Of a DNA stretch of 64,000 nt, positions 62,877 to 64,000 are shown piece by piece. The notes below the pieces were generated by a model. It had not been told where the DNA came from. It saw only the letters and a program-made list of their open reading frames with translations, and did not search any database. The stretch is from Hymenobacter oligotrophus (GTDB lineage Bacteria; Bacteroidota; Bacteroidia; Cytophagales; Hymenobacteraceae): the NCBI RefSeq assembly GCF_003574965.1, contig NZ_CP032317.1:2418001-2482000 (forward strand), in the 5' to 3' direction. A program made the position numbers and the translations under genes. The stretch's first letter is position 1. Each line of letters starts with the position of its first letter.

Positions 62877-62993
62877 ATGACTACTTGGCCCGCTATCAGA
62901 CAAAGCAAATTGCTGATTGCAAATGAATTACACATCAGCATTCAGTTATTAGACTTACAGTTTTCATCACTCTGAAAAAACTTTTTGCCGGAT

Positions 62994-63023
62994 TTGCGTT
63001 TTAGGCAACCGGTACTACCTTTG
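62994..63023 (+). promoter_or_regulatory. promoter of the metY leader
   Basis: TTG (62994-62996; TTTG including the base before it), 19-nt spacer, TACCTTTG (63016-63023). This is an exact consensus match; the transcript should start near 63030, just before the riboswitch. Confidence 0.85.
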
Positions 63024-63059: not shown

Positions 63060-63172
63060 ATGGTTTATTCCGAAGCGGCGAGAGAACAGGCTCGATGACC
63101 CGCTGGCAACCACCGGCAACGCACAAGCCGGCAGGTGCCAAGTCCTGCCCCCACCGAGGGGACAAATAAATA
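63060..63172 (+). ncRNA. SAM-I-type riboswitch upstream of metY
   Basis: The core is recognisable: P1 TTTATT (63064-63069) pairing with AATAAA (63165-63170), GCGAGAGAACAGGCTCGATGA, CCCGCTGGCAACC with the conserved GCAACC, a variable P3 stem, then GGTGCCAAGTCCTGC. This is the S-box pattern as it appears in Bacteroidota. It senses S-adenosylmethionine and here precedes a methionine-synthesis gene, as expected. The expression platform is not evident; the short leader ORF begins 8 nt after P1. Confidence 0.85.
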
Positions 63173-63179
63173 GCGTGCT

Positions 63180-63341
63180 ATGGATACCTACCCGCACCCC
63201 TACCACACTCTTTCGCAGTTCCGCGCTACCGCGGCGCCCGCTACAGCTATGCTTGTAGCCGTTCGCCCCGCCCCCGCGACCATGATGCAGCCGCAAGCTA
63301 TGCGTGCTGCCGCAGCGGTGTGTTGTTGCTGTTGTTGGTAG
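63180..63341 (+). CDS. leader peptide ending in five cysteines
   Basis: A 53-codon ORF from ATG 63180. It begins MDTYPHPYHTLSQFRA, contains five Met codons (1, 24, 35, 36, 41) and ends V-C-C-C-C-C-W-stop, the Cys codons being 63321-63335. It starts 8 nt after the riboswitch and stops 207 nt before metY. A run of codons for the amino acid that the pathway consumes or makes, at the end of a short ORF in the leader, is the signature of an attenuation or stalling peptide. Poly-cysteine leader ORFs acting as cysteine-responsive attenuators are known in mycobacteria. Here it is a prediction only. Confidence 0.65.
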   Translation: MDTYPHPYHTLSQFRATAAPATAMLVAVRPAPATMMQPQAMRAAAAVCCCCCW

Positions 63342-63349
63342 TTAGCCCC

Positions 63350-63368
63350 GCGGGCGCTTAAAGCCCGC
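63350..63368 (+). promoter_or_regulatory. hairpin just after the leader ORF
   Basis: Stem GCGGGC/GCCCGC with loop GCTTAAA, beginning 9 nt after the leader stop and followed by a C-rich, T-poor stretch (CCCTACCCCTCCCAC). It could be the structure that a ribosome stalled on the Cys codons would affect. It is not a classic U-run terminator. Confidence 0.4.
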
Positions 63369-63458
63369 CCCTACCCCTCCCACTCTACATTTTGGCCGCC
63401 CCTGCTCGGCGGCACGTGGCTTCGTCGCACCCTAGGTTTTCACTGGGCTTGCGGCTAG

Positions 63459-64000
<542 letters not shown>

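Follow-up and report, generated by a model that had tools for sequence, protein, structure and literature searches.

The window analysed here comprises 64,000 nt of the Hymenobacter oligotrophus genome (NZ_CP032317.1, positions 2,418,001 to 2,482,000), and near its end, on the forward strand, a promoter-like box, a riboswitch aptamer, a short ORF and metY follow one another. The box, TTTG-N19-TACCTTTG (62993–63023), was read directly from the sequence and has what we take to be the Bacteroidota-type promoter consensus; TACCTTTG also lies 32–38 nt upstream of three of the four other SAM-I aptamers of this genome, the exception being the one ahead of metH (L001). The initial annotation had placed a promoter of perfect consensus here: the box stands, and a sigma-70 scan, which covers no other promoter types, found no promoter. 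The aptamer (63062–63172) belongs to the SAM-I (S-box) class, scoring 65.5 bits with the RF00162 covariance model against a cut-off of 44.4. The leader ORF (63180–63341) starts with an ATG at +8 relative to the aptamer end (63172) and has 53 codons with the translation MDTYPHPYHTLSQFRATAAPATAMLVAVRPAPATMMQPQAMRAAAAVCCCCCW*, ending VCCCCCW-stop. Within this Cys5-Trp-stop segment (63321–63341), the Cys run occupies 63321–63335, the Trp codon 63336–63338 and the TAG stop codon 63339–63341. Upstream of the run lies a Met-containing stretch, MMQPQAMR (63282–63305), whose final Met alone falls within the last 14 codons.

The leader stop is followed by a hairpin, GCGGGC-N7-GCCCGC, which has no U tract (63350–63368), and by a C-rich, G-poor tract (63363–63400; 55% C, 13% G) that could serve as a Rho loading site. 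The metY gene starts at 63549, 207 nt past the leader stop, and runs beyond the window (63549–64000). Its product belongs to the O-acetylhomoserine/O-acetylserine sulfhydrylase family (TIGR01326, 674 bits against a cut-off of 495), with its closest named relatives in Hymenobacter (up to 88% identity). A metX-like and then a hom-like gene lie 3′ of metY, forming a metY-metX-hom operon, the MetX family model matching the metX-like gene below its cut-off. Both the 53-codon ORF with its Cys5-Trp-stop end 207 nt before metY and the SAM-I-type riboswitch directly 5′ of it had been proposed from the letters alone, and both are borne out. No Pfam or NCBIfam family above its cut-off was found for the six leaders scanned, the window's included.

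The window has a single run of five TGY codons, where 100 shuffles gave 0.00 on average; genome-wide, on both strands and in any frame, there are 30 such sites, several of which end short ORFs, so that the Cys run by itself is unremarkable. For the sites outside the window, 26 surrounding loci were examined, 15 with a complete in-frame ORF and 11 with none, and some of these ORFs also end in the run, such as L335 (...ACCCCCR). A TAnnTTTG box within 200 nt upstream accompanies one of the 15 complete ORFs, the permease leader L322; the terminal Cys runs of L313, L314/L315, L317, L325 and L335 have no such box and were taken as chance occurrences. This abundance is what could be said for a chance repeat or microsatellite in front of metY, an explanation that we regard as practically excluded, since it is refuted by conservation over many genera, by the mixture of TGT and TGC, by synonymous changes and by the link to the riboswitch. 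What is remarkable is the placement of the run behind a riboswitch, together with its conservation.

Within the genus, eight genomes hold 35 SAM-I elements, whose downstream genes were assigned by tblastn with the proteins of this genome. H. oligotrophus itself has five: those at metY, at a PAPS/APS-reductase-type cysH, at an amino-acid permease gene and at a gene for a RimK-like ATP-grasp protein each have, between aptamer and gene, a short ORF that closes in a Cys cluster, and the one at metH has no Cys leader. When a Cys leader is defined as an ORF with at least three Cys among its last 14 codons, such leaders follow all 27 non-metH elements of the eight genomes (8 metY, 7 cysH, 8 permease and 4 ATP-grasp) and none of the eight metH elements. 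The start codon is an ATG at +8 in the metY leaders and a GTG at +10 to +13 in the other leaders. The metY leader ORF was found in all eight genomes, the Cys5-Trp nucleotides being identical in 8/8 and the nucleotides common to all eight leaders extending through TGTTGTTGCTGTTGTTGG. Over whole tails, a synonymous-change test gave a weak signal (0.245 versus 0.156 at random). The RimK-like ATP-grasp protein encoded downstream in L003, which gives weak family matches and whose gene has a SAM-I element and Cys leader in 4/8 genus genomes, could, at a guess, be a ligase of a thiol compound.

Beyond the genus, we examined the 80 metY loci nearest to the window MetY, out of at least 594, from Hymenobacter, Mucilaginibacter, Pedobacter, Pontibacter, Chryseolinea, Algoriphagus, Saprospiraceae and others; because they were picked for this proximity, their frequencies are not population rates. 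A SAM-I element above the cut-off precedes 76 of the 80, a set that leaves out the first SAM-I element of L099, which belongs to another gene, as well as L005 and the other genus loci. In every one of the 76, an ATG follows the aptamer at +2 to +16. When any ATG at +1 to +22 is allowed, 70 of the 76 leaders carry at least three Cys in their last 14 codons, one or more internal Met are found there in 71, and 66 combine the two features; L100 and L116, whose Cys leader begins at the second ATG, are counted among the 70. The six leaders with no Cys run (L086, L095, L096, L101, L107 and L113) keep an ORF of 13–43 codons starting at +10 to +14, that of L096 ending in HMAMSMPGC and that of L107 having neither Met nor Cys in its tail. 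In the other four of the 80, L066, L067, L068 and L110, no SAM-I element was found even below the cut-off (E up to 1); about 290 nt upstream, L110 has a short ORF whose product ends in GCCWL, and L066 and L068 show nothing clear as a leader ORF. The conservation check set beforehand was thus passed, the run and its placement being kept in 27/27 non-metH elements of the genus and in 70/76 metY loci with SAM-I.

Controls and broader samples delimit this arrangement. Of 95 SAM-I loci listed from other classes of the phylum, an ORF near the aptamer with at least three terminal Cys occurs in 1/95 and an ATG at +1 to +16 in 34/95. Bacteroidia metH controls, 8 of the 22 coming from the genus, show neither a near ATG (0/22) nor a Cys leader (0/22). 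The matches listed for an even phylum sample of 118 genomes include 50 Bacteroidia loci, 12 of them with a MetY of at least 50% identity; at least three Cys are found in four of these 12 (L195, L200, L219 and L250), and in none of the 16 Bacteroidia metH loci listed. Of the remaining metY loci, L164 and L213 have two Cys plus Met, L192 has Met only and L173 is ambiguous, and no Cys leader was found in L156, L161, L207 and L218 (0/4; MetY identity 50–52%). A class sample of 60 genomes, with those already seen left out and genes named by motif, contributed 42 further loci, with a Cys leader at 3/3 metY and 0/31 metH. Given these metY counts in the phylum (4/12) and class (3/3) samples, the arrangement is common without being universal and goes with certain metY lineages.

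Several variants were noted alongside. The Algoriphagus-type metY leaders, L095, L113 and L192, have an ORF at about +10 with no Cys and one or two Met near the end. By eye, the Cys leader and metY are separated by a thioredoxin/peroxiredoxin-like gene in the Hymenobacter loci L047, L052, L054, L055, L057, L058 and L063 (at about 2200–2950), and by an OsmC-like gene in L072 and L079. In L243 (G079, from the family of the window's genome), a SAM-I element and a Cys leader (..GCCCMSSAAACMR) precede a region with no match to the metY, metH, cysH, permease or ATP-grasp proteins of this genome; the next long ORF resembles, by eye, the start of an outer-membrane receptor, and genes resembling it lie behind SAM-I elements without a Cys leader in L174 and L184.

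The tails of the leaders differ sharply in composition from their bodies. Leaving aside the eight first-ATG leaders with fewer than three Cys, the remaining 68 have 1.6% Cys in their bodies versus 42% in their tails, and among non-Cys residues Met makes up 0.8% of bodies versus 19% of tails, the latter value being far above the usual proteome average. In the 70 Cys leaders, 107 of 122 internal Met fall within the last 14 codons, whereas permutation of the non-Cys residues within leaders placed 27.6 there on average and 45 at most (2000 trials). AUG is avoided near start codons in Bacteroidota (reported in PMC6847099), which may be a partial source of the Met contrast between bodies and tails. 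The Cys codons themselves are under coding constraint: over 121 non-independent pairs, their single-base differences comprise 149 synonymous and 114 nonsynonymous changes, besides 103 multi-base ones, while 1 in 9 would be synonymous if change were unconstrained and unbiased. The synonymous bias that the initial annotation had looked to is therefore present, and the leader combines a short ORF with clustered codons for amino acids of the pathway and coding constraint on the run, as expected of a leader attenuator. The proposal that the riboswitch and leader together sense SAM and cysteine gains from this conservation and needs an amendment: given their Met enrichment, the tails seem to read Met-tRNA too, so that the leader probably reads both Cys-tRNA and Met-tRNA.

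Cu(I) is bound by both Cys and Met, which counts for a different use of such a tail, namely that the encoded peptide binds a metal or senses redox state. We consider this very improbable: the linked genes are mostly those of sulfur assimilation behind SAM-I riboswitches, and the ribosome tunnel holds about 30–40 amino acids, within which the run, at the extreme C-terminus, would still sit when the stop codon is reached. The precedent would be the copper-responsive uORF product CruR, reported as a Cys-motif uORF coupled to Rho, but CruR is described as having a CXXC motif and, separately from it, a RAPP arrest motif at the C-terminus (PMC9426467), and none of the six leaders scanned, the window's included, matched its family (DUF2946).

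Bacteroidota rarely use Shine-Dalgarno sites. In front of the 76 leader ATGs, A is over-represented at −14 (0.76), −13 (0.57), −12 (0.71) and −11 (0.58), and also at −6 (0.68) and −3 (0.61); in Flavobacterium johnsoniae, these positions are reported to modulate initiation (PMC6847099). In the window, the 5′ strand of P1, GTTTATT (63063–63069), is complementary, with one G-T pair, to the 3′ strand, AATAAAT (63165–63171), which includes nucleotides −14 to −11 relative to the leader ATG; across the 76 loci, these positions coincide with or abut the P1 3′ strand, often UAUAAA. The initiation signals of the leader thus lie within P1, and P1 closed by SAM would therefore hide the leader initiation region.

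How the leader might act on metY is constrained by what lies between them. Terminator-like sites from the leader end to metY number 2 in 76 loci versus 1.45 in shuffles, which is chance level; in the first 150 nt past the aptamer, they occur in 33/95 of the listed loci of other classes (shuffles 1.1) and in 7/50 of the listed Bacteroidia loci of the phylum sample (shuffles 0.25). Pairing of the Cys codons with downstream RNA, assessed in 68 loci as duplex energy between the last 24 leader nucleotides and the spacer against 200 shuffles, was rejected as a general feature (mean z −0.25, 6/68 below −1.64), and a GCAACA complement of the Cys codons is confined to part of a Cyclobacteriaceae-like group. 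Hairpins 3′ of the leader stop vary by clade and, as the Cys-codon pairing is not general either, no shared switch structure was found. L081, L083, L087, L094 and L114 share a hairpin-like sequence 3′ of the leader (TAGC-TACG..CTGCC..GTGACAGG..TTACGGCTA), preceded in most of the five by the GCAACA complement; Rfam, at its gathering score, has nothing at this sequence.

With terminator-like sites at chance and no general Cys-codon pairing, an intrinsic terminator/antiterminator pair was rejected as the general device, its only look-alike being in L067. A classical attenuator of this kind is accordingly hard to credit for the window, where the terminator scan gave weak sites within the leader (63302–63329), which could be read in its favour, and none in the spacer. 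L067 also speaks for it: in this Chitinophagales MAG (2740–2960), which has no SAM-I element, a Cys leader (..VCCMCCCAS..) begins 5 nt past a TATCTTTG box, and a strong hairpin with a T run, resembling an intrinsic terminator, lies between it and metY. L067 looks like a separable module, a near-leaderless single-input version of the system.

A compositional bias was found in place of a terminator. C exceeds G in 68/68 spacers and 67/68 leader bodies, compared with 37/66 metY coding regions and 31/65 other upstream regions of the same loci; a rank test of spacers against the upstream controls gives about 2e-16 with related sequences treated as independent, and among the genus loci together with a single sister locus, 25/28 spacers show the bias. 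As an indicator of rut sites, C-over-G bias is weak. This genome has a rho gene, so that both C-over-G RNA and the factor itself, as expected of a Rho attenuator, are present; these two points and the missing terminator signal together favour Rho, and L067, with its intrinsic-terminator-like hairpin and without SAM-I, indicates that Rho is not universal. The earlier reading of the leader as an attenuator is upheld in this amended form, without a classical terminator/antiterminator and with signs pointing to Rho.

An alternative without Rho is translational attenuation as in the mycobacterial polycysteine ORFs, the ribosome on the leader refolding the RNA and thereby opening or closing the metY start. 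In Mycobacterium smegmatis, stalling at uORF Cys codons is reported to act on translation (PMC9031893, PMC13236596), initiation in Bacteroidota is reported to be sensitive to mRNA structure (PMC6847099), and several clades do have hairpins past the leader stop. Nevertheless, this remains an unlikely explanation, because the Cys codons have no shared pairing with the downstream RNA, the hairpins that can be named are close to the leader stop, which in most loci is about 80–240 nt away from metY, and the C-over-G bias is not expected under it.

Taken together, these observations make it probable that the metY leader is a two-layer RNA controller, in which the SAM-I element gates a Cys/Met leader and Rho acts downstream. 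When SAM is bound, P1 would close and bury the A-rich initiation region, so that the leader would not be translated; when SAM is low, the leader would be translated and its last 14 or so codons would read charged Cys-tRNA and Met-tRNA. If either of these were short, the ribosome would stall at the 3′ end of the leader. Rho would stop transcription before metY wherever the C-rich leader and spacer RNA is untranslated or vacated, and a ribosome stalled at the leader end would shield this RNA from Rho. The metY-metX-hom operon would then be fully on only when low SAM coincides with a shortage of Cys or Met.

This sign, by which shortage would turn the genes on, is chosen mainly because a like leader precedes cysH. 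The initial annotation had argued that MetY uses sulfide and competes with cysteine synthesis, a logic that would predict the opposite: stalling at low Cys-tRNA would expose the spacer and switch metY off, sparing sulfide for cysteine. MetY does consume sulfide, and the spacer 3′ of the stop is C-over-G as well. We nonetheless find the reversed sign improbable, as turning off at Cys shortage makes little sense for the cysH leaders of 7/8 genus genomes, the Met codons of the tail also fit a demand signal, and MetY matches TIGR01326, a family named O-acetylhomoserine (OAH) sulfhydrylase/cysteine synthase, and may therefore itself make cysteine. More tentatively, and somewhat short of an even bet, the preferred two-layer reading can be extended to a 5′ leader that integrates three sulfur signals (SAM, Cys-tRNA and Met-tRNA), with leader initiation built into P1, the riboswitch as gate and Rho as executor, in a widespread Bacteroidota system of sulfide and sulfate assimilation that spares methionine synthase.

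If the two-layer reading is correct, terminator-less SAM-I riboswitches could work in Bacteroidota by controlling a leader peptide and not the gene itself, and a metabolite aptamer would be coupled in series to a sensor of tRNA charging. The reading also yields a rule for finding missed small ORFs: a start within about 16 nt of a SAM-I element and 14 final codons that include at least three Cys and usually also Met. A comparison of riboswitch regulons, whose main text does not contain the term 'leader peptide', mentions SAM riboswitches from many phyla (PMC3766115). Among the matches listed from open-access full texts, there is no report of a SAM riboswitch combined with a Cys or Met leader peptide, nor, in agreement with the initial annotation, of a Cys leader in Bacteroidota.

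The nearest known systems are the Cys-codon attenuators that the initial annotation had named from mycobacteria and that have indeed been described there (PMC4633059; Canestrari et al. 2020, as cited in PMC9031893 and PMC13236596). These polycysteine ORFs likewise have clustered Cys codons, C-terminal in the case of cysA2, ahead of sulfur or cysteine genes, and are proposed to read out Cys supply. In contrast to these leaderless ORFs, the leaders described here belong to another phylum, lie behind SAM-I elements, contain Met codons and mainly precede metY; the window leader, its ATG lying behind the aptamer and about 150 nt past the promoter-like box, near which we infer the transcription start, is not leaderless. 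The uORFC-8-2 of cysS in Rhodobacterales is a tandem-Cys uORF with predicted ribosome-mediated attenuation, but it has two Cys codons and an intrinsic terminator, with neither a riboswitch nor Met reported in the accessible text (PMC8632094).

As for the riboswitch, the match to the RF00162 aptamer model and the sulfur-gene targets are those of SAM-I, whereas 33/95 of the listed SAM-I elements of other classes are followed by terminator-like sites. The SAM-I elements ahead of metH in Bacteroidia mostly lie 35–90 nt from the gene start, while here the nearest initiation site is that of the leader peptide. Leader peptides coupled to Rho include tnaC, mgtL and corL. As reported for CruR (PMC9426467), such leaders have a C-over-G bubble and leader translation decides whether Rho stops transcription; here, where Rho action is our proposal, the signal would be aminoacyl-tRNA supply combined with a riboswitch. 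Finally, the tandem SAM-I/AdoCbl arrangement of Bacillus clausii metE likewise places two sensors in one sulfur-gene leader, both of them described as aptamers, whereas in the arrangement reported here one of the two would be a leader peptide (PMC2258182).
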